From: a bacterium
Lineage (GTDB): Bacteria; Sysuimicrobiota; Sysuimicrobiia; Sysuimicrobiales; Segetimicrobiaceae
Assembly: GCA_035945995.1 (NCBI GenBank)
Contig: DASYZR010000108.1
Coordinates: 1 to 34,689, forward strand
DNA length: 34,689 bases
Direction of reading: 5' to 3'
Part shown: positions 17,324 to 30,966 of the stretch, piece after piece
Layout of the letters: each line of letters starts with the position of its first letter
Position numbering within the stretch: position 1 is the first letter of the stretch
The notes under the pieces: generated by a model
Databases searched by the model: none
Told to the model about the DNA's origin: nothing
The model's input: only the letters and a program-made list of their open reading frames with translations
Position numbers and translations under genes: made by a program

Positions 17324-20197
17324 TCAGGCCGACGGGATGCGGAGTCCTCGTTCAACGGCCCAGGCGGCGATCTGGGCGCGAGAGTTGAAGCCAAGTTTAT
17401 TGAGGATGCTCTGCACGTGGCCCTCGGCCGTGCGCTCGGCGATCACCAGACGAGACGCGATCTCACGATTGGACAGGCCCTGAGCGACGAGCGCCGCCAC
17501 CTCACACTCTCGCGCCGTGAGGGGGGTCGTCGGCGAGGCCGACCGGCGGATGGTGGCGGACGTGGCTGCAAGCGCCATGGCTTCCTCGACGGCTTCGTCG
17601 GACGTCATGGCGCGGCCGCTGTCCCAGGCTGAGGAGAATTTTTGGTCTCCAAGCCGTGCGCGCATGGATGCCACCGTGTGTTCGAAGTCCATCTGCTCGG
17701 CCGGCTCGAGGTGTGCTCCCTTGGCCGTGAGGAGCGCGCCGACCGCTCCGAGCAACCGTGCGATTCTCTCCGGCGGCACATCTCCCACCCAAGCGGCGGC
17801 CAGGCCGGCCACGGCCATCATCACGTTGGTCGAGGCTCTGAGATCAGATGTCAGGATCAGGCTTTGCCGGAACAGGTCGCGCGCCTCGTCGGTTTGGTTT
17901 TGGCGGAGCCGGATGTACGCCAGGTTATGGAGGACGTGTGCCTTGCCCCGATCATCGCCGATCTCGCCGTACAGCGCCAGCGCCTGTTGGGTCAAGGCAG
18001 CCGCTCGCCCATAGTCCCGCTGCATCCGGGCCAGCTCTCCAAGGCAATCGACGGAGTTCGCGATCCCGCGCCGGTTCCCAGCCTCCTGGTACAGCGCCAC
18101 GCTGCGCTCCATCATCTCCGTCGCTCGAGCAAAGGCGCCTTCAGCCTGCCTGACATGCGCAAGAAAGTGGAGAGCCAGTGCGCTCGCAGACGCGTCGCTG
18201 TGCGCCTCGGCGATCGACAGCCCTTCTGAGCAGAGCACAAAGACTTGTTGGTAGTCTCCCTGACGATAGGCCAGGATGCCGGCACTGGTGAGGGCCCGCG
18301 ATCGCAGCGCGGGGGGCGCCTGTCCTCCGGCCGCGATCATGCCCTCCAACCACGCTCGTCCTTCGGCGAAATACGCACGAATCTCCCAGAATCGCCGCAG
18401 CGTCACGGCCAGCCGCAGCCCGCGCTCTCCTCCATCGTCCAGCCCTCGGGAGTGCTCCAAGGCGGTCCGCAGGTTGTCGTGTTCCGTCTCCAACCGGTCC
18501 AACCACGCCTTCTGCTCCGGCCCGTCGAGCCCGTCGCCGGCGCGTTCCGCGAGGGCCAAGTACCAATCTCGGTGCCGGCCGCGAACCGATTCCGCCGTTC
18601 CGGCTTCGTGCAGCCGTTCCCGGCCGTACTGCCGCACCGTCTCCAATAACCCGTACCGCGCTTCCCCGCCCTGTATCTCGGCGAGCACCAGCGACTTGTC
18701 GACGAGGGACGTCAGGAGGTCCAGGATCTCCGGCGCCTCCAGTCCGTCTCCGGCGCACACCGCTTCCGCCGCTTCCAGCGTCCACCCGCCGGCAAATACC
18801 GACAACCGGGCGAGCAGGACCCGCTCGCGCTCGGTGAGGAGGTCGTAGCTCCAATCCATCGCCGCCCGCAGCGTCCGCTGGCGCGGAAGCACCGTCGGGC
18901 TGCCCCCCGTCAGCAACCGGAACCGATCGTCCAGGCGCGCGGCGATCTGCTCTACCGAGAGCGCCCGCGCGCGCGCCGCCGCGAGCTCGAGCGCCAGGGG
19001 AATCCCATCCAGCCGACGGCACGCCTCCGCGATCACGCGGGCGTTGTCGCGGGTGACCTGGAAGCCGGACCGGACCGCCGCGGCGCGCTCGGCAAAGAGA
19101 CGCACCGCTTCAAACTGCATCATGCGGTCGTGGGGTGGCAGGTGCACGGGGTCCGGCGCTGACAGCGACGGTACGCGCCAGATCGTTTCCCCGGCCACGC
19201 CCAGCGCCTCCCGGCTCGTTGCCAGGATGCGCACCCCGGGACACCTGCGCAGCAGAGCATCGGCCAAGCCGGTACAGGCCGTCAAGAGGTGCTCGCAGTT
19301 ATCAAGGACGACGAGCAGTGACTTCTGCCGCAGCGCGTCCATGAGCGTGTCGACGAGAGTTCGGCCGGATTGTTCGGGCACGCGGAGCACCGCGGCCGCG
19401 GCGTGGGGGACGAGGGTGGGGTCGGAGAGGGCGGCAAGTTCGACGACCCAGACGCCGTCGTGGAGTTCCCCGAGGAACCCGCGGGCAACCTCGAGGGCCA
19501 GCCTGGACTTGCCACAGCCTCCTGCGCCGGTCAGCGTGAGCAGACGCCGGTCCAACAGCAGTCGCGTCACTTCGGCGGTCTCGCGCTCACGCCCGATGAA
19601 GCTCGTCAGCGCGACCGGCAGGTTGCTCGGAACGTCGTCGAGCGATTTCAACGGCGGGAACGAGAGGGCCAACCCGGCGGCCACCACCTGGAAGAGCCGC
19701 AGGGGTTGCGTGAGATCCTTGAGCCGGTGCTCGCCGAGGTCGCGGAAGCTCACTCCCTCGGGCGGATCCTTGGCCACGAGGGCGTGGGTGGAATCGGAGA
19801 CGAGAATCTGGCCTCCGTGCCCGGCGGCACAGATGCGGGCCGCACGGTGCACGTCCAGGCCGGCGTATCCCTCGGGTCCCTGAACCGGCTCGCCGGTGTG
19901 CAGGCCCATCCGGACGCGGAGCGTGGCGCCCTCAGGCCAGGCGTGCGCCATGAGCGTCCGCTGCGCGGCGATCGCGGTGGCGACGGCATCTCTGGCAGAA
20001 GCGAACGCTACCAGGAAGGCGTCCCCCTGCGTGTCGACCTCGCGGCCATTCCCCGCGGCGAACGCGTCGCGCAGCAGGCGCCGATGCTCCGCCAGGATAT
20101 CCGCGTACCGCCGGTCGCCAAGACGCTGCAGCAGCGCCGTGGACGCCTCGAGGTCCGTGACGACGAGCGTGACGGTCCCCGCAGGCGGCGTGGCCAT
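17324..20197 (-). CDS. Cyclase-like / NB-ARC ATPase / TPR / LuxR transcription regulator
   Basis: A 957-residue protein from ATG 20197, 4 nt after the upstream regulator frame stops. Residues 1-175 form a class III adenylate/guanylate cyclase domain with metal aspartates Asp15 (VTDLEAST) and Asp59 (QGDAFLVAF). The position usually Asn in NRAAR is His117 (LDVHRAARI), so catalysis is doubtful. Residues 195-520 are an NB-ARC/AfsR-type ATPase with Walker A GAGGCGKS (224-231), Walker B LLVVLDNCEH, and TSREALGV and GIPLALELAAARARAL. A helical TPR region follows. Residues about 890-955 are a LuxR/GerE HTH (LTARECEVAALVAQGLSNRE and so on). This signal-integrating STAND activator class binds nucleotide and oligomerises on ligand or partner binding. 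The ligand is unknown. Confidence 0.88.
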   Translation of the reverse strand: MATPPAGTVTLVVTDLEASTALLQRLGDRRYADILAEHRRLLRDAFAAGNGREVDTQGDAFLVAFASARDAVATAIAAQRTLMAHAWPEGATLRVRMGLHTGEPVQGPEGYAGLDVHRAARICAAGHGGQILVSDSTHALVAKDPPEGVSFRDLGEHRLKDLTQPLRLFQVVAAGLALSFPPLKSLDDVPSNLPVALTSFIGRERETAEVTRLLLDRRLLTLTGAGGCGKSRLALEVARGFLGELHDGVWVVELAALSDPTLVPHAAAAVLRVPEQSGRTLVDTLMDALRQKSLLVVLDNCEHLLTACTGLADALLRRCPGVRILATSREALGVAGETIWRVPSLSAPDPVHLPPHDRMMQFEAVRLFAERAAAVRSGFQVTRDNARVIAEACRRLDGIPLALELAAARARALSVEQIAARLDDRFRLLTGGSPTVLPRQRTLRAAMDWSYDLLTERERVLLARLSVFAGGWTLEAAEAVCAGDGLEAPEILDLLTSLVDKSLVLAEIQGGEARYGLLETVRQYGRERLHEAGTAESVRGRHRDWYLALAERAGDGLDGPEQKAWLDRLETEHDNLRTALEHSRGLDDGGERGLRLAVTLRRFWEIRAYFAEGRAWLEGMIAAGGQAPPALRSRALTSAGILAYRQGDYQQVFVLCSEGLSIAEAHSDASASALALHFLAHVRQAEGAFARATEMMERSVALYQEAGNRRGIANSVDCLGELARMQRDYGRAAALTQQALALYGEIGDDRGKAHVLHNLAYIRLRQNQTDEARDLFRQSLILTSDLRASTNVMMAVAGLAAAWVGDVPPERIARLLGAVGALLTAKGAHLEPAEQMDFEHTVASMRARLGDQKFSSAWDSGRAMTSDEAVEEAMALAATSATIRRSASPTTPLTARECEVAALVAQGLSNREIASRLVIAERTAEGHVQSILNKLGFNSRAQIAAWAVERGLRIPSA

Positions 20198-20201
20198 ACG
20201 C

Positions 20202-22566
20202 TCAGCCGCGTTCCGCCGCCGGGAGATCGTTACTCGGCGAGACAACGTGTACCCCGTGCGCGACTGCCCAGGCCGCAATCTGAGTCCGTGCGGTGAACCC
20301 CAACTTATTGAGGATGCTCTGCACGTGTCCCTCGGCCGTCCGCTCCGCGACGACGAGGCGGGCGGCGATTTCGCGGTTCGTCAGCCCCTGCGCGACGAGC
20401 CGTGCGACCTCTCGTTCGCGCGCGGTCAAGACACCCTGACGCCCGCCGGGCCCGGGAGACGCGGGGGTGTCCGGCGCCAACGCGTAATCGATGGCTTGGT
20501 CCGGCTCCATCGCCCGCCCCTGGGCCCATGTAGCCGCGAGGACTGTCTCGTCCAGGTTCGCCCGCAGCAGGGCGACATGGCCGTCATGCTCAGGACGCTG
20601 GGCGGGGGGCAAGGCGGTGTGAATGGCCTCCCGCAATGCTTCCGCCGCGCCGAAGAGCCGCGCGGCCGGAATACCACCCGTCCCAATCTGAGCAGCGACG
20701 AGGCGATGGCGCCGGACCCGCGCAACGCACGGGCCAGTGTCAGACTCTCCTCAAGCAGCGCGATCGCCCGCACGGCGTCGCCACGCGCCGCTGTTGCCAG
20801 TCCGAGCCCCGAGAGGGGCCCCGGAACTTCTAAAGTATCGCCGATCTTGCGGAAGAGCGCGACGCTTTCCTCGTAGAGCGACGCGGCCCGGTCGTAGTCC
20901 CCTTGTCTGATTGCCACGCCGGCCCAACAGTCCAGGGTGAAGGCGCATCCCCACTTGTCTCCGGTCTCCCGGAAGAGCGTCAGGCTGTCCTGAAACATGC
21001 GTGCGGCTACCGCGAAATCGTCGTGCACACGCGCGATATGGGCCAGATGGTGTAGCGTGAACGCGGTACCGTAGGTATCGTCCAGTTGCCGGAACATTTC
21101 GAGGCTCTGTTCAAGTCTGGCTTGGGCGTGTTCATAGTCTCCTAGTTTTTCCGCTAACGCCCCGGCTCCGCATAGCACACGGGCACGGACCGAGGCCGGG
21201 ACCGCGCCGGCCCGAGACGTCATTTTCTCGAGCCAGTCCCGGCCCTCGCTGACGTATCCTCGCAACAGCCAGAACCGCGTCAACGCCCAGGCCAGCAGCG
21301 CCCCCGCCTCGGCGCCACCCTCGTCGATCGTGCACCATTCCAGCGCGGCCCGCAGGTTGTCGTGTTCCGCCTCCAGCCGTTGCAACCACATGGCTTGCTC
21401 CGGTCCCCTGAGGGCCGGATCGGCGTGCTGCGCCACGTCCAAACACCAGTCTCGGTGCCGCCGGCGAGTCGAATCCGTCGTTCCAGTCTCGTCCAACCGC
21501 TCCCGAGCATACTGCCGCACCGTCTCCAGAAGCCGGTACCGGGCCGCACCGTCTCCAGAAGCCGGTACCGGGCCGCGGCGTCGCGGGTCTCCGCGATCAC
21601 CAGCGACTTATCGACAAGCTGCGCAAGGAGTTCCAGAATCTCTGAGGCGGCGATCTCGCCTTCCGCGCACACCGCTTCGGCTGCTTCGAGCGTCCACCCG
21701 CCGGCAAAGACGGACAGCCGCGGCAGGAGGGCGCGTTCCGTTTCCGACAGCAGGTCGTAGCTCCAGTCCATCGCCGCCCGCAGCGTCCGCTGGCGGGGAA
21801 CCGTTGTCCGGCCCCCGCCCGTGAGGAGCCGGAATCGATCGCCGAGGCGCGAGGCAATCTGCTCAACCGTGAGTGCGTTCACCCGGGCGGCGGCCAGCTC
21901 GATCGCCAGCGGCATCCCGTCCAGACGCCGGCATGCCCGCGCGAGCGCCGGCGCGTTCGTGACTGTGATTCGAAAGCCCGGCTGCGCGGAGGCGGCCCGA
22001 TCAACAAAGAGCCTTATGGCCTCATACGTTGTCAGCCGGTCCGCGGGGAGGACCGTGGACGCATCGGGCATGGAGAGCGGAGGCACGCGCCAGATCGTTT
22101 CGCCCGGGACCCCCAAGGGCTCCCGGCTCGTCGAGAGGATTCTGACCTGGGGACACGCGCGTAGGAGGGTATTTGCCAGTTCGGCGCAGCCGGTCAGCAG
22201 GTGCTCGCAGTTGTCCAGCACGAGTAGCAGCGATGTGGCGCGGAGGGCGTCGACGAGCGTGTCACCGACGGCGCGCCCCGGTTGCTCGGGCACACCGAGT
22301 ACCGCGGCGACGGGGTGAGGGAGAAGGCTGGAGTCGGAGAGCGACGCGAGTTCCACTACCCAGACGCCGTCGCGGAACGTAGTGAGGACGCGGGCCGCCA
22401 CTTCAATCCCCAGCCGCGACTTGCCGCAGCCTCCGGCTCCGGTAAGCGTGAGCAGGCGCGTACCAGACAACAAGCGGCGCAGTTCCGCAATCTCACGCTC
22501 GCGTCCGACGAAACTCGTGAGCGGAGTCGGCAAGTTGTTGGGTATGGCGTCCCTTGTGTCGGCCAT
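20202..22566 (-). pseudogene. Second NB-ARC/TPR/LuxR regulator, frameshifted twice
   Basis: It starts at ATG 22566 (GGAGAT 8 nt upstream), MADTRDAIPNNLPTPLTSFV, directly at the ATPase, and has no cyclase domain. Walker A GAGGCGKS, LLLVLDNCEH and TSREPLGV are intact and very close to the downstream paralogue. After LLETVR the frame is lost because a 29-bp segment is tandemly duplicated (21514-21542 and 21543-21571). With one copy removed, it continues QYARERLDETGTTD as in the paralogue's QYGRERLHEAG. The TPR region then reads on to about 20680, where a further one-base shift is needed to reach the tail (ARLFGAAEALREAIHTALPP). The LuxR HTH (LTAREREVARLVAQGLTNRE) then runs to the stop at 20202. 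It is either a recent pseudogene or two separated partial proteins; the ATPase half could still be made. Confidence 0.85.
21514..21576. repeat. 29-bp tandem duplication inside regulator gene
   Basis: The 29-bp unit at 21514-21542 is repeated immediately at 21543-21571, and identity continues a further 5 nt (to 21547/21576). The unit includes CGTCTCCAGAAGCCGGTACC. Because 29 is not a multiple of three, the second copy shifts the minus-strand reading frame of the regulator exactly at its LLETVR segment. Confidence 0.93.
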
Positions 22567-22652
22567 TGGTGGATCTCCGTACACTGCGTGGACGCGACAA
22601 CCGGCGCTTCGCCTGTGAGACGACGACGTTCGGTGTAGTCTCGCCGGTCTCC

Positions 22653-22682
22653 TTGACAACGTCTACCCGGCTCTGGTACAGT
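22653..22682 (+). promoter_or_regulatory. Promoter of the ilv-leu operon
   Basis: A perfect TTGACA (22653-22658) is followed after 18 nt by TACAGT (22677-22682), four of six to TATAAT and preceded by TG one base away. Predicted transcription starts about 22689, at the beginning of the T-box leader. A second TTGACA at 22686 has no -10 at proper spacing. Confidence 0.65.
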
Positions 22683-22689
22683 CACTTGA

Positions 22690-22980
22690 CAAGTCCCCAT
22701 ATACAGGCGATGAGGAGGACGGGCCGCGGGTTCCCGGATCCGAGAGAGCTGGGTCAGGTGAAAACCAGCATCCGGAGCCGCGACCGCTCACTTCCGAGCC
22801 GCGGAACCAAAGGCACGCCGCTCGCCCCGCGTAGACGGGGCCGGGCGCGCGCCGAGTAGCATCCGCCGGACCCCGCCGTAACCGGGAAGAGGGCCGTCCG
22901 CGCCGCAACGCCGGACGGAACTAAGGTGGTACCGCGGGAAGCCCCGTCCTTAGATGGCTTTCCGCGGTTTCGTATTTTTT
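22690..22980 (+). ncRNA. T-box riboswitch, leucine (CUC) specifier likely
   Basis: The leader of ilvB. The conserved T-box AAGGTGGTACCGCG is at 22923-22936, with its tRNA-acceptor-binding bulge TGGT (22927-22930). CTAAGG (22921-22926) pairs with CCTTAG (22948-22953) to form the antiterminator. A competing terminator follows. Stem I can be folded: base GGAGG (22714-22718) with CTTCC (22791-22795), CGCGG (22725-22729) with CCGCG (22778-22782), CCGGAT (22734-22739) with ATCCGG (22770-22775). The AGAGAG bulge (22743-22748) and the conserved GGTGAAAA-type terminal loop follow. In the specifier loop, CTC at 22787-22789 is followed by A just above the base helix, the position of a specifier codon. 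Uncharged tRNA-Leu(GAG) would favour antitermination, matching the operon's products. The specifier call is less certain than the T-box itself. Confidence 0.9.
22932..22980 (+). terminator. Attenuator terminator of the T-box leader
   Basis: CCGCGGGAAGCC (22932-22943) pairs with GGCTTTCCGCGG (22956-22967) with one G-T pair, with a 12-nt loop and then a T-rich tract ending in six T (22975-22980). Its left arm overlaps the T-box sequence and its loop holds the antiterminator's right arm, so the two structures are mutually exclusive. Confidence 0.92.
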
Positions 22981-23010
22981 GCCGGATCGAGCGGGAGAGG
23001 AGCGAGGGGC

Positions 23011-24733
<1,723 letters not shown>

Positions 24734-24753
<20 letters not shown>

Positions 24754-25273
24754 GGCGCTCGAAGCCGTCCCGCGCCACGCGCGGCCGATGAAGCACACCA
24801 TCTCGGTGCTCGTGGACAACGCGCCGGGCGTCCTGATGAAGGTCGCGGGCCTGTTCCGGCGCCGGGGCTACAACATTCACAGCCTCGCCGTGGGGGTGAC
24901 CGAGCAGGCGACGGTGTCGCGGATGATCATCGTTGTCGAGGGCGAGCCGGAAATCCTGGAGCAGATCATCAAGCAGCTGAACAAGCTGATCGAGGTCATC
25001 AAGGTCAACGACGTCACCGGCTTCAACACCGTCGACCGGGAACTGGCGCTGATCAAACTCAACGCGACGCCGACCACCCGCATGGAGATCATGGAGATCA
25101 GCAACGTCTTCCGGGCGAGCGTCGTCGACCTGACCGAAAAGACGATGACGCTCGAGGTGACGGGGCGGTCCGACAAGATCGACGCGATTCTGTCGCTGCT
25201 CACCAAGTACGGCGTGCGCGAGATGGTCCGCACCGGCCAGGTCACGCTGGTGCGCGGCACCCAACCGACGTAG
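24734..25273 (+). CDS. ilvN: Acetolactate synthase regulatory subunit
   Basis: A 179-residue protein. ATG 24734 overlaps the end of ilvB; ATG 24788 would give the minimal ACT start, [20 protein letters not shown]. The N-terminal ACT domain has [15 protein letters not shown], where valine binds and inhibits the enzyme. A C-terminal ALS_ss domain follows, with [20 protein letters not shown] and a conserved tail. It activates IlvB and confers feedback sensitivity. The overlap implies translational coupling and a matched subunit ratio. Confidence 0.96.
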
Positions 25274-25291: not shown

Positions 25292-26362
25292 ATGCCGGCC
25301 AAGGTGTATTACGAGCAGGACGCCAACCTCAACGTGCTTCGCGGCAAGCGGGTGGCGGTGATCGGGTACGGCAGCCAGGGCCACGCCCAGGCCCAGAACC
25401 TCAACGACAGCGGCGTGGCGGTGGTCGTGGGGCTCTACAAGGGCAGCCCGTCCTGGCCGCAGGCAGAAGCGGACGGCCTGGAGGTCGCGACAGTCTCGCA
25501 GGCCGCCGCGCAGGCTGACATCGTGCAGATCCTCATTCCGGACGAGATCCAATCGCGCGTCTACCGGGAGGAGATCGCCCCGCATCTCACCGCCGGCAAG
25601 GCGGTGGGGTTGTCGCACGGGTTCAGCATTCACTTCCATCAGATCGTCCCGCCGGCCGACGTGGACGTGTTCATGATCGCACCGAAGAGCCCCGGGCACC
25701 TGCTGCGGCGGATGTACGTCGAGGGCAAGGGCGTGCCGTCGCTGCTGGCGGTGCACCAGGACCACACCGGCAAGGCGCGGGCGATCGCCCTGGCCTATGC
25801 GCACGGCATCGGCAGCCTCCGCGCCGGTGTGATCGAGACGACGTTCCGCGAGGAAACCGAGAGCGATCTGTTCGGCGAGCAGACCGTGCTGTGCGGCGGC
25901 ATCTCGGAGCTGATCAAAGCGGGTTACGAAACGCTGGTCGATGCGGGCTACGCGCCCGAGATCGCGTACTTCGAGTGCCTGCACGAGATGAAGCTCATCG
26001 TGGACCTGATCTACGAGGGCGGCCTGGGTCTGATGCGCTACTCGGTGAGCAACACCGCGAAGTTCGGCGATTTCACGCGGGGCCGGCGGATCATCACCGA
26101 CGAGACGCGGGCGGAGATGCGGCGGATCCTGGCGGAGATCCAGAGCGGCAGCTTCGCGAAGGAGTGGATCCTCGAAAACCAGGCCGGCCGCCCGGTGTTC
26201 AACGCGCGGTACCGTCAGGAAGCGGACCACCGGATCGAGGAGATCGGGCGGCAGCTGCGCGCCATGATGCCGTGGCTGAAGCGTGACGCCGCCGTTCGCC
26301 CCGCGCGAGACGGGGCGCCCAAAGCCGAGCCCCGCAAAACCGAGGCCCGGGCGAAGCGATAG
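25292..26362 (+). CDS. ilvC: Ketol-acid reductoisomerase, class I
   Basis: A 356-residue protein from ATG 25292 (GGGAGAGAGGGG upstream). It isomerises and reduces acetolactate or acetohydroxybutyrate to the dihydroxy acids. The Rossmann motif is [13 protein letters not shown]. The cofactor-specificity loop reads GLYKGSPSW, with a Tyr where Arg is usual but both serines kept, so NADPH use is likely. Mg ligands are in [14 protein letters not shown] and [14 protein letters not shown]. Class I enzymes end soon after the [10 protein letters not shown] segment. This one carries an extra basic, Ala/Pro/Arg/Lys-rich tail of about 25 residues, part of which is coded by a CCCCGC...CGGGG hairpin. It follows ilvN by 18 nt. 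Confidence 0.96.
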
Positions 26363-26418: not shown

Positions 26419-27966
26419 ATGGAGACGGCGATGAGCGAGATGATCCGGATCTTCGACACGACGCTGCGGGACGGGGAGCAGTCGCCCGGCTTCACGATGA
26501 ACACGCAGGAGAAACTGGAAGTCGCGCGGGCGCTGGCCGCCCTCCGGGTGGACGTGATCGAGGCCGGGTTCCCGGCGAGCTCGCCGGGGGATCTCGAAGG
26601 CGTGCAGCTGATCGCGCGGGAGGTGCGCGGCCCCATCATCGCCGGGTTGGCGCGCGCCAACCGGGGGGACGTGGAGGCGGCCATCGACGGCGTCCGGGAA
26701 GCGGAGCGGCCGCGGATCCATACGTTCATTGCCACCTCGCCGATCCACATGGAGCACAAGCTTCGGATGACGCCCGACGAGGTGTACGAGGCGGCGGTCG
26801 GGGCGGTCCGGCTGGCCCGCCGGTCGGTGGAGGACGTCGAGTTCTCCGCGGAGGATGCGAGCCGGTCCGATCCCGAGTTCCTGGTCCGCGTGTTCGAGGG
26901 CGCAATCGACGCCGGCGCCACGACGATCAACGTACCGGACACCACGGGATACGCGACGCCCGAAGAGTACGCGGCGCTGCTGCAGTTCTGCATCGAGCGG
27001 ACCAAGGGGGCCCACCGCGCCGTCTGGAGCGTGCATTGTCACGACGACCTTGGGCTCGCGGTCGCCAATTCGCTGGCCGCGCTGCGCGTCGGCGTGCGCC
27101 AGATCGAAGGGACCATCAACGGGATCGGCGAGCGCGCCGGCAACGCGGCGCTCGAGGAGATCGTCATGGCGCTGCACACGCGGCGGGGCCACTATGGGTT
27201 CGAGACCGGCGTCGACACGACCAAGATCTATCGCACGAGCCGGCTCATCAGCGCGATCGCCGGCGTGCCGGTGCAGCCCAACAAGGCGATCGTCGGCGAC
27301 AATGCCTTCGCGCACGAAGCGGGGATCCATCAGCACGGCGTGCTCATGAACCGTGAAACGTACGAGATCATGACCCCGCAGACGATCGGCATTCCGAGCA
27401 ACAAGCTCGTGCTCGGCAAGCACTCCGGGCGGCACGCGTTCAAGAAGATGCTGGCGGACAACGGCCTCGGCCTAAGCGACGCCGAGGTGGAGCGCGCCTT
27501 CGTCGAGTTCAAGGTGCTCTGCGACAAGAAGAAGCAGGTCTCGATCGAGGACATCTTGTCCCTCGTCGAGAGCGACGTCCAGGGCGCCCCGCAGACCTAC
27601 GGGCTGCGCGCCTTCCACGTGTCGACGAGCAGCACGCTGCCGCCGATGGCCTCCGTCACGCTGGCGCGGGGCCGGGAGCTGTTCACCGAGGAGGCGAGCG
27701 GGGACGGGCCGGTCGACGCGATCTACAACGCCGTCAACAAGATCGTCGGCCTCTCGCCGACGCTCGCCGACTACGCGATCAAGGCCGTGAGCGGCGGGAC
27801 GGACGCCATGGGCGAAGCCACGGTGAAGGTGCGGGACGGCGACGGCCTGTTCGTCGGGCGGGGGACGAGCACCGACGTCCTGGAGGCCAGCGCCAAAGCC
27901 TATCTCGCCGCGATCAACAAGCTCATTTACGAGCGCCAGCACTGGATGAGCAATACCTACGGGTAG
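26419..27966 (+). CDS. leuA: 2-isopropylmalate synthase
   Basis: A 515-residue protein from ATG 26419; ATG 26431 with GGAG upstream is an equally good start. It condenses acetyl-CoA and 2-oxoisovalerate, the first committed leucine step. The TIM-barrel has IFDTTLRDGEQSPGFTM (metal Asp and catalytic Arg), HTFIATSPIHMEHKL, VEFSAEDASRSD and HCHDDLGLAVANSLAAL (metal His). GTINGIGERAGNAALEE follows, with the linker AGIHQHGVL and GKHSGRHAFKKML. The C-terminal LeuA dimer domain, about 400-500, has FHVSTSSTLPPMASVTL and carries the leucine feedback site. Length is that of the long bacterial LeuA. cimA follows 6 nt later. Confidence 0.96.
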   Translation: METAMSEMIRIFDTTLRDGEQSPGFTMNTQEKLEVARALAALRVDVIEAGFPASSPGDLEGVQLIAREVRGPIIAGLARANRGDVEAAIDGVREAERPRIHTFIATSPIHMEHKLRMTPDEVYEAAVGAVRLARRSVEDVEFSAEDASRSDPEFLVRVFEGAIDAGATTINVPDTTGYATPEEYAALLQFCIERTKGAHRAVWSVHCHDDLGLAVANSLAALRVGVRQIEGTINGIGERAGNAALEEIVMALHTRRGHYGFETGVDTTKIYRTSRLISAIAGVPVQPNKAIVGDNAFAHEAGIHQHGVLMNRETYEIMTPQTIGIPSNKLVLGKHSGRHAFKKMLADNGLGLSDAEVERAFVEFKVLCDKKKQVSIEDILSLVESDVQGAPQTYGLRAFHVSTSSTLPPMASVTLARGRELFTEEASGDGPVDAIYNAVNKIVGLSPTLADYAIKAVSGGTDAMGEATVKVRDGDGLFVGRGTSTDVLEASAKAYLAAINKLIYERQHWMSNTYG

Positions 27967-27972
27967 ACGGCG

Positions 27973-29595
27973 ATGCCGAACGCCGGGCGCATCGCGCTCT
28001 ACGATACCACGCTGCGGGACGGCACCCAGGGCGCCGGCATCACGCTGTCCGCGGACGACAAGCTCCGGATCGCCGAGCACCTCGACGCCTTTGGGGTGGA
28101 CTACATCGAGGGCGGCTGGCCGGGCAGCAACCCGAAAGACATGGAGTTCTTCGAGCGCGCCCGCGGACGGGCGTGGCGGCACGCGCGTCTGACGGCGTTC
28201 GGCAGCACGCGCCGCCCCGGGACTTACGCCGAGCATGACGAGAACCTCAACCTGCTCCTCGCCGCGGGGACGCCGGCCGCGGCGCTGTTCGGGAAGTCGT
28301 GGGACCTGCACGTACGCGAGGCGCTCCGGACGACGCCCGAGGAGAACCTCGCCATGATCGAGGAGTCCGTCCGGTTCCTCCGCTCGCGCGGCATCGAGGT
28401 CGTCTACGACGCGGAGCATTTCTTCGACGGCTGGAGGGCCAACCCCGACTACGCGCTCGCTACGCTCCGCGCCGCCGAGCGCGCGGGGGCGTCCGTGGTG
28501 GTCCTGTGCGACACGAACGGCGGCCGCCTGCCGCGCGAGATCCAGGCCGGCGTCGCCGCGGCCCGCCGCGCGGTCGAGGGACCGCTCGGCATCCACGCGC
28601 ACAACGACGGCGAGCTCGGCGTCGCCAATACCCTCGTGGCCGTGGACGCGGGGTGCGTGCACGTGCAGGGCACGATCAACGGCATCGGGGAGCGCTGCGG
28701 CAACGCGAACCTCGTCTCGATCATCCCCAACCTGCAGCTCAAGATGGGGTACCGCTGCGTGGCCGAGGACCAGATTGTGCGGCTCGGGGAGGTCTCGCGC
28801 TACGTCGCCGAACTGGCGAACATGGCCGCCGACGAGTACCAGCCGTTTGTGGGGATGAACGCGTTCGCGCACAAAGGCGGCGTGCACGTCAGCGCGGTGA
28901 TGGCCCACCCGCCGACCTACGAGCACATCGCCCCGGAGGCCGTGGGGAACGCGCGGCGCGTCGTCGTGAGCGACCTGTCGGGCCGCGCCAACGTCCTGTA
29001 TAAAGCGAAGGAGATGGGCATCGACCTGTCGCGCGACCGGCCCGAGATCCGCGAGATCCTGGCCGAGCTGAAGCGGCTCGAACACGAGGGGTACCAGTTC
29101 GAGGCGGCGGAGGCGTCGTTCGAGCTGCTGATGCGCCGGATCATGGGGCAGCACCGGCCGTCGTTTGCGCTGCTCGGCCTGCGCGTTACGGTCGAAAAGC
29201 GCGGCGGCGTCTGCGCGGCGGAGGCGACCATCAGGGTGGCGGTGGACGGCCAGGAAGAGCACACCGCGGCGGAGGGTGACGGCCCGGTGCACGCGCTCGA
29301 CCGGGCGCTGCGCAAGGCCCTGGGCCGGTTCTATCCCGCGATCCAGCGCGTGCGCCTGACCGACTACAAGGTGCGCGTCCTGAACGCGGATGCCGCCACC
29401 GCCGCCCGCGTCCGGGTCCTCATCCAGTCGACCGACGGGGTCCGGACCTGGGGCACGGTCGGCGTCTCGGAGAACGTCGTCGAGGCCTCGTGGCAAGCGC
29501 TGGTCGACAGCCTCGAGTTCGTGTTGCTGCGCGAGCCCGGCGCGCACGGCGTGGGGTCGGCGGCGGGGACGGCTGGCGAGAGCATGCCTTCGTGA
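27973..29595 (+). CDS. cimA: (R)-citramalate synthase
   Basis: A 540-residue protein from ATG 27973. It condenses acetyl-CoA with pyruvate to citramalate, the entry to threonine-independent isoleucine synthesis. The start ALYDTTLRDGTQGAGITLSA has the LRDGTQ form typical of CimA rather than LRDGEQ of LeuA. Further evidence is YIEGGWPGSNPKD, FGKSWDLHV, EVVYDAEHFFDGW, HAHNDGELGVAN (metal His) and INGIGERCGNANL. The C-terminal regulatory domain (LGLRVTVEKRGG, then EGDGPVHALDRALRKAL) follows. Length matches the roughly 530-residue family. It lies between leuA and leuB; its stop overlaps the leuB GTG as GTGA (29592-29595). Confidence 0.95.
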   Translation: MPNAGRIALYDTTLRDGTQGAGITLSADDKLRIAEHLDAFGVDYIEGGWPGSNPKDMEFFERARGRAWRHARLTAFGSTRRPGTYAEHDENLNLLLAAGTPAAALFGKSWDLHVREALRTTPEENLAMIEESVRFLRSRGIEVVYDAEHFFDGWRANPDYALATLRAAERAGASVVVLCDTNGGRLPREIQAGVAAARRAVEGPLGIHAHNDGELGVANTLVAVDAGCVHVQGTINGIGERCGNANLVSIIPNLQLKMGYRCVAEDQIVRLGEVSRYVAELANMAADEYQPFVGMNAFAHKGGVHVSAVMAHPPTYEHIAPEAVGNARRVVVSDLSGRANVLYKAKEMGIDLSRDRPEIREILAELKRLEHEGYQFEAAEASFELLMRRIMGQHRPSFALLGLRVTVEKRGGVCAAEATIRVAVDGQEEHTAAEGDGPVHALDRALRKALGRFYPAIQRVRLTDYKVRVLNADAATAARVRVLIQSTDGVRTWGTVGVSENVVEASWQALVDSLEFVLLREPGAHGVGSAAGTAGESMPS

Positions 29596-30671
29596 CCGCG
29601 CGGGCCATGCAGGTCGCGGTCGTCCCCGGCGACGGGATAGGTCGCGAAGTCATCGCCGAGGCCGTTCGGGTCCTGCGGGAAACCGGCCGCCGGTTCGAGA
29701 TCACGCTGTCATTCGAGCAGGGCATCGCCGGCGGCGCGGCGATCGATGCGCGCGGCACGCCGATTCCGGACGAGACGATCGCGCTGTGCGCCCGCTCCGA
29801 CGCCATCCTGCTCGGCGCCTGCGGCGGTCCCAAATGGGACCGGGGACCGCGCCACCTGCGCCCGGAGCAGGCGTTGTTCACCTTGCGGCGGCGGTTCGGC
29901 CTGTACGCGAACTTGAGACCGGCCGTGGTGCGCGGCCCGCTCGTGGGAGCGTCGCCGCTCCGCCGCGAGCTCGTCGAGGGTCTGGACCTCCTCATCATCC
30001 GGGAGTTGACCGGGGGCTTGTATTTCGGCCCGCAGTCGCGCGCCGGCGAGGGCGAGGAGCTCACCGCGCAGGACACGCTGCCGTACTCCGCCGGGGAGAT
30101 CCGCCGCGTCGTGCGGGCGGCGTGCCGGATCGCCCGCACACGCCCCCGGCGCAAGGTGACTTCCGTCGACAAGGCCAACGTGCTGGAAACCTCGCGGCTC
30201 TGGCGGGACGTCGCGACGGAGGTCGGCCGCGAGTTTCCGGACGTCGCCCTGGACCACATGCTGGTCGACAACTGCGCGATGCAATTGGTGCGCGACCCGC
30301 GGCAGTTCGACGTCGTCGTCACGGACAACATGTTCGGCGACATCCTGAGCGACGAGGCCGCCGGCGTGATGGGGTCGCTCGGGCTCATGCCGTCGGCGAG
30401 CCTCGGCGACGCGCCGCCGGGGCTGTTCGAGCCCGTTCACGGCACCGCGCCCGACATCGCCGACCGCGGCATCGCCAATCCGCTCGCGGCGATCCTGACC
30501 GGTGCGCTGTTGCTCCGGTACGGCGCCGAACACGAAGCCGCGGCGTCGGCGATCGAGACGGCCGTGATCAAGGCGCTCGAAGACGGCTGCCGGACGGCCG
30601 ACATGGCCGGGAGCGGCCCGGCGCTCGGGACGGCCGCGATGACCGACGCCGTCCTCGCGCGCCTCTCCTGA
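29592..30671 (+). CDS. leuB: 3-isopropylmalate dehydrogenase
   Basis: About 359 residues if started at GTG 29592, which overlaps the cimA stop; ATG 29607 is the alternative and gives the bare start MQVAVVPGDGIGREV. NAD-dependent oxidative decarboxylation of 3-isopropylmalate, and in CimA organisms also of 3-methylmalate. The family motifs are GACGGPKWD, the substrate arginines in LRPEQALFTLRRRFGLYANL, ELTGGLYFG, VTSVDKANVLETSRLWR (catalytic Lys) and VVTDNMFGDILSDEAAG (Mg aspartates). Last comes EPVHGTAPDIADRGIANPLA (NAD loop). It is the last recognisable gene of the branched-chain operon; leuC and leuD are not in the window. Confidence 0.95.
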   Translation: MTARAMQVAVVPGDGIGREVIAEAVRVLRETGRRFEITLSFEQGIAGGAAIDARGTPIPDETIALCARSDAILLGACGGPKWDRGPRHLRPEQALFTLRRRFGLYANLRPAVVRGPLVGASPLRRELVEGLDLLIIRELTGGLYFGPQSRAGEGEELTAQDTLPYSAGEIRRVVRAACRIARTRPRRKVTSVDKANVLETSRLWRDVATEVGREFPDVALDHMLVDNCAMQLVRDPRQFDVVVTDNMFGDILSDEAAGVMGSLGLMPSASLGDAPPGLFEPVHGTAPDIADRGIANPLAAILTGALLLRYGAEHEAAASAIETAVIKALEDGCRTADMAGSGPALGTAAMTDAVLARLS

Positions 30672-30708: not shown

Positions 30709-30966
30709 GTGCTCGAGCTGCGACCCAATTGTGAATGCTGCGGGAAGGACCTGCCGCCGTCGGCTCCCGACGCGATGATTTGCTCGTTCGAATGCACGTT
30801 CTGTCGCGAGTGCGCGGAACACACCCTCGCGGGCCGGTGTCCGAATTGCGGAGGGAATCTCGTCCCGCGCCCGATCCGCCCCGCCGCCAAGACGGCGGAG
30901 TACCCGGCGTCGACCGTGCGTGTCGTCAAACCGCAGGGGTGCCGGCAGGCGGCCACGGCCGGCTAG
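30709..30966 (+). CDS. DUF1272 zinc-binding protein
   Basis: An 85-residue protein from GTG 30709, 37 nt after leuB. It begins MLELRPNCECCGKDLPPSAP and continues AMICSFECTFCRECAEHTL and GRCPNCGGNLVPRPIRPA. This near-invariant arrangement of CxxC pairs (eight or more cysteines) is that of DUF1272. The family probably folds as a small treble-clef or RING-like zinc protein. No activity is established. The last 25 residues are variable. It may be carried as a passenger on the operon transcript. Confidence 0.9.
   Translation: MLELRPNCECCGKDLPPSAPDAMICSFECTFCRECAEHTLAGRCPNCGGNLVPRPIRPAAKTAEYPASTVRVVKPQGCRQAATAG

Follow-up and report, generated by a model that had tools for sequence, protein, structure and literature searches.

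T-boxes placed ahead of ilv-leu genes have been familiar in Bacillus subtilis since the 1990s. For that organism, control of ilv-leu by a CUC T-box in response to leucine is described as established (Marta et al. 1996, cited in PMC2494555; PMC12452182), and CUC is the commonest leucine T-box specifier, at 74% (PMC7778990). Outside Bacillota, a T-box lies upstream of leuA in Geobacter and Pelobacter (PMC2494555). Here we describe a leader from an uncultured bacterium of the order Sysuimicrobiales (family Segetimicrobiaceae), located in what we call the window, that is, the whole stretch of 34,689 nucleotides that was analysed (contig DASYZR010000108.1, assembly GCA_035945995.1). The leader at 22701-22954 is a real transcriptional T-box, every part of which can be placed by hand and by covariation (Table 1). 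It resembles the B. subtilis ilv-leu T-box in its CUC codon, its predicted leucine tRNA partner, its transcriptional antitermination and its position as one leader before ilvB-ilvN-ilvC-leuA. In this respect the finding is real but ordinary, and Bacillus-type CUC leaders were also seen upstream of ilvB in other genomes. Differences lie in the phylum, in a divergent Stem I S-turn and in the genes: the B. subtilis operon holds leuBCD and no cimA, whereas in the window cimA is inserted, leuCD is absent from the unit and leuC lies elsewhere. The Geobacter/Pelobacter T-box likewise precedes a leucine biosynthesis gene outside Bacillota, but it controls leuA rather than an ilv-leu-cim unit. Judged from sequence, what is less ordinary here is the inclusion of cimA, conserved in relatives, together with a Stem I S-turn that lacks AGUA.

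Anatomy of the leader

The Rfam T-box model RF00230 matches the window on the forward strand at 22701-22954 over model positions 1-219, the full model, with 57.6 bits and an E-value of 4.7e-12 (1.0e-11 when searched against the whole genome). The gathering score of RF00230 is 93 bits, and each of the ten ilvB leaders scanned in the family, counting that of the window, scores under it; at this default threshold the Rfam scan reported no T-box in the window nor in nine family loci. We rejected the absence of a T-box suggested by the default scan, the E-value search and covariation being decisive. Given that the window leader has about 70% G+C, that the RF00230 consensus is A/U-rich and that the scores fall under the gathering threshold, the family leaders have possibly been overlooked by annotation pipelines.

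The first-pass annotation had proposed a complete transcriptional T-box, from promoter to terminator, and the parts were found where it had put them. All 74 pairs of the hand-drawn structure are standard in the window. In an alignment of ten leaders from the family, the 61-pair antitermination-state structure has 94.2% of its cells paired, compared with 34-48% once the 3' partners are shifted by 1-3 columns. In nine pairs both partners have changed, and values as high as these did not arise in any of 500 shuffles. Covariation is seen across the family in Stems I to III, in helix A1 of the antiterminator and in the terminator; an example is the Stem II pair 22805/22862, with A-U to G-C compensation. 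The Stem II S-turn (AGUAG), the T-box bulge and, in all 10 leaders, the Stem IIA/B pseudoknot are invariant. Since neither the pseudoknot nor helix A2 ever varies, they cannot be tested by covariation, and it is their conservation and their match to the T-box architecture in a review (PMC7583486) that argue for both. The AG bulge and the distal loop GGUGAAA are expected to form a double T-loop platform that receives the tRNA elbow. The anatomy was not taken from unconstrained folding, because the minimum-energy fold does not draw the canonical Stem I (its z-score is only -2.05).

A hairpin between Stem I and the antiterminator, near 22824-22840, had been singled out at first as having no T-box counterpart. 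After alignment we rejected it as a separate element: it occupies 22825-22840 and falls inside Stem II, between GGC (22812-22814) and GCC (22851-22853), distal to the S-turn GAGUAG. Such a long tip occurs in three genus members only, the remaining family leaders having a short loop there. The change from CCCCG...CGGGG in the window to UCCCG...CGGGA in leader L118 is compensatory. By alignment, then, the hairpin is a genus-specific peripheral extension of Stem II, a region that spans about 10 to 200 nt in T-boxes (PMC7583486).

At the two ends of the leader lie the promoter and the terminator. The promoter motif search returned one site in the window versus 0.1 expected in shuffles, the promoter can be picked out by eye in several leaders of the family, and transcription would start near 22690. 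Antiterminator and terminator are mutually exclusive in the window, with standard pairs in both structures. Across the family, 93.8% of the cells of the 13-bp terminator are paired and 3 pairs have both sides changed. A terminator scan program reported none in the window, a likely reason being that it looks for the U-run from 0-2 bases after the stem; we placed stem and U-run manually and used covariation as the check.

Table 1. Features of the T-box leader and the genes downstream, in window coordinates. Paired strands are separated by a slash.
Feature	Position	Strand	Basis and details
Sigma-70-type promoter TTGACA-N18-TACAGT	22653-22682	+	TTGACA 22653-22658; 18-nt spacer; TACAGT 22677-22682
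Stem I	22706-22800	+	RF00230 match, standard pairs, covariation
Stem I base	22706-22708/22798-22800		Base helix; Stem I also holds the K-turn GAUGA/GAG
Stem I helices	22714-22718/22791-22795; 22725-22729/22778-22782; 22734-22739/22770-22775; 22748-22752/22765-22769		
AG bulge GAGAGA	22742-22747	+	RF00230; invariant in family alignment
Stem I distal loop GGUGAAA	22757-22763	+	
Specifier CUC (Leu), then A 22790	22787-22789	+	RF00230 placement; invariant in 33 leaders
Stem II	22801-22866	+	RF00230, family alignment, covariation
Stem II parts	22801-22805/22862-22866; 22806-22811/22854-22861; 22825-22840		Base; S-turn region (GAGUAG); distal hairpin; inner GGC/GCC
Stem II tip extension CCCCG-CGUAGA-CGGGG	22825-22840	+	Family alignment
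Stem IIA/B pseudoknot	22867-22886	+	CGG 22867-22869/CCG 22876-22878; CCC 22872-22874/GGG 22884-22886
Stem III CCGUCCG/CGGACGG	22894-22918	+	RF00230, covariation
Antiterminator	22921-22953	+	A1 22921-22926/22948-22953; A2 22934-22938/22943-22947; RF00230, alignment, covariation
T-box bulge UGGUACC	22927-22933	+	Between A1 and A2
Intrinsic terminator	22931-22980	+	13-bp stem 22931-22943/22956-22968; U-rich tail to 22980
ilvB, acetolactate synthase large subunit	23011-24753	+	TIGR00118, 790 bits; start by alignment
ilvN, acetolactate synthase small subunit	24734-25273	+	TIGR00119; start 24734, or 24788 by profile
ilvC, ketol-acid reductoisomerase	25292-26362	+	TIGR00465
leuA, 2-isopropylmalate synthase	26419-27966	+	TIGR00973, 684 bits (cut-off 599)
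cimA, citramalate synthase	27973-29595	+	TIGR00977, 776 bits (cut-off 450)
leuB, 3-isopropylmalate dehydrogenase	29607-30671	+	TIGR00169, 466 bits; start by profile

The specifier, its tRNA and competing readings

The codon CUC, followed by A, sits directly above the lower Stem I helix GGAGG/CUUCC, where it had been read by eye; the significant covariance-model match puts the same codon in the specifier slot. Neither of the outcomes named beforehand as refuting the reading, another codon in that slot or the lack of a significant T-box hit, was obtained. CUC is found in all 33 leaders compared in the order while the flanking bases vary (11 from the family and 22 further ones; of the latter, 21 lie immediately before ilvB, and L018 is about 2 kb upstream). 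The genome encodes a tRNA-Leu(GAG) with discriminator A73, whose ACCA end fits the UGGU of the T-box bulge. We put at roughly 94% the probability that this is a leucine-specific, transcription-terminating T-box that senses tRNA-Leu(GAG).

By analogy with the well-studied T-box mechanism, its action would be as follows. When leucine is scarce, the anticodon of uncharged tRNA-Leu(GAG) would pair with the specifier and the tRNA elbow would stack on the AG bulge and distal loop. The free ACCA end would then pair with UGGU (22927-22930) and stabilise the antiterminator, allowing RNA polymerase to read through into ilvB-ilvN-ilvC-leuA-cimA-leuB. The 3' end of a charged tRNA cannot pair; the terminator stem (22931-22968) would form and transcription would stop near 22980.

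Could the decoding loop be read in another frame, as GCU (Ala), CGC (Arg) or UCA (Ser), so that another tRNA is sensed? There is one extra nucleotide between GA(C) and CUC, and a rigid canonical offset would indeed read GCU. However, CUC alone is invariant in the family whereas GCU, CGC and UCA are unconserved, the order's 22 remaining leaders, mostly with the canonical GAA, all read CUC too, and the genes downstream are branched-chain amino acid genes. The same genome (G000) offers a further comparison in five more T-boxes (L001, L003, L004, L005 and L006, on C5, C70, C116, C44 and C143, respectively). Their specifiers are UCC (Ser) before a serA-type gene pair, CCC (Pro) at proC, GUC (Val) at valS, ACC (Thr) at thrS and UGG (Trp) at a DAHP synthase gene, these gene names coming from reading the translations and not from family search. 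The bulge base fits the tRNA discriminator as UGGC/G73 (Ser), UGGA/U73 (Thr) and UGGU/A73 (Leu, Pro, Val), with a U-G wobble for Trp. Since the same reading rule gives codons that suit the genes and discriminators of these five T-boxes, a wrong frame at ilvB is unlikely; all told, we regard it as highly improbable.

Alternatively, the leader might be a degenerate remnant that no longer switches and serves as a constitutive attenuator or plain leader, as the low Rfam score and the loss of the Stem I S-turn could suggest. Against decay speak the compensatory changes in Stems I, II and III, in A1 and in the terminator, and the invariance of AG bulge, specifier, Stem II S-turn and T-box bulge; together these indicate that selection is maintained on the leader, and we regard a remnant as highly improbable. 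Some T-boxes outside Bacillota act on ribosome access and not on termination, and translational ileS T-boxes are described (PMC7583486). For the window we give such a mode of action equally little credence: the strong terminator stem is followed by UUUCGUAUUUUUU (22968-22980) and covaries in relatives, and the purine-rich stretch at 22997-23009 ahead of the ATG at 23011 falls outside the hairpin.

Genes under the leader

On the forward strand the unit reads ilvB-ilvN-ilvC-leuA-cimA-leuB, with NCBIfam equivalog models above cut-off. This confirms the gene order of the first-pass annotation, cimA included. The ilvB start is ATG 23011, which is conserved in relatives, and not ATG 22954, which lies inside the terminator. 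The leuA models score far below their cut-offs on the cimA protein, and from these family models the assignment as citramalate synthase is firm. It had also been claimed that one leucine sensor controls valine, leucine and isoleucine synthesis together. The part of this that holds is that cimA and ilv steps stand under the leader; leuC and ilvD of this genome lie on other contigs, and neither gene is adjoined by any of the genome's six detected T-boxes. A single leucine sensor would thus reach the ilv steps held in common, the enzyme that opens the leucine branch and the citramalate route into isoleucine, and not the whole pathway. On whether isoleucine depends solely on cimA, the model ilvA_1Cterm gave no match in the genome over cut-off; two strong partial matches cover only the first 295 of 380 positions.

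Where ilvB and cimA share a contig, cimA comes about 3-6 kb after ilvB in most genomes of the order. Within the family the two genes are on the same strand with a gap of about 3.3 kb; in most other members of the order with both on one contig, the gap is about 5 kb. In G026 the extra length is leuC-leuD, between leuA and cimA. The leuC types also differ, with TIGR00170 in the window's genome (G000:C5:60429-61817) and TIGR02083 in L211; it is possible that the isopropylmalate isomerase was replaced in the window's genome. No description of cimA under a T-box was found in the open-access papers searched, which is weak evidence because only open-licence text was covered.

The surroundings of the unit hold further genes. 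A small cysteine-rich DUF1272 (PF06906) protein is encoded at 30709-30966 (forward strand), 37 bases after leuB and possibly on the same transcript. On the reverse strand, 17324-20278 and 20202-22659 encode two neighbouring, related regulators with a STAND-type NTPase and a LuxR-type end. The former is a single 984-aa frame and the latter is split into three overlapping frames (459, 364 and 144 aa), which suggests frameshifts, a pseudogene or assembly errors.

The divergent Stem I S-turn

Other ilvB T-boxes of the order, for instance those of Candidatus Segetimicrobium genomatis (L037) and G026 (L211), share the homologous position and the CUC codon with the window. They differ in the loop that presents the codon. 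The window has GAC in place of GAA and lacks the 5' AGUA strand of the Stem I S-turn. This strand is present in none of the 11 family ilvB leaders, in contrast to 21 of the 22 leaders from elsewhere in the order (20 identified by script, and L127 in the alignment). The gap between GA(C) and CUC is one nucleotide longer than in the Rfam consensus, and also larger than in the rest of the order, where none or one nucleotide separates GA(A) from CUC. An alternative loop geometry may replace the Stem I S-turn. Within the same genome, the serA-type T-box L001 (G000:C5:52051-52290) is also without AGUA/GAA, unlike those of valS, thrS, proC and DAHP synthase.

Some relatives in the order show a different elaboration, in that Guanidine-I (ykkC-type) riboswitch matches form a tandem with the ilvB T-box, lying immediately upstream of it (L127:3797-3904, reverse strand; L146:995-1099 and L139:977-1081, forward strand). 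These matches, at 63-68 bits, are just over cut-off and may represent a ykkC subtype with another ligand; none was seen in the window. Tandems of a T-box and Guanidine-I on ilvB are listed for Bacillota (PMC12452182).

Food for further study is whether one Sysuimicrobiales family has remade the decoding loop of its leucine T-box, dispensing with the canonical S-turn in Stem I while keeping that of Stem II. If so, the codon would be read here in a naturally altered geometry, and in a unit whose single leucine sensor would also govern isoleucine synthesis by way of citramalate. We offer this tentatively, at somewhat below even odds.

Sysuimicrobiota, the phylum of this order, is little studied and known mostly from metagenomes. 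High-GC T-boxes of the sort found here fall below the Rfam gathering score and escape default annotation. Our analysis extends the leucine T-box of Bacillus type to ilv-leu genes of Sysuimicrobiales, where citramalate synthase is encoded behind the same leader. The leaders of the family form a natural set that has kept the codon but not an intact Stem I S-turn, which has decayed; they are useful for probing the role of the S-turn.
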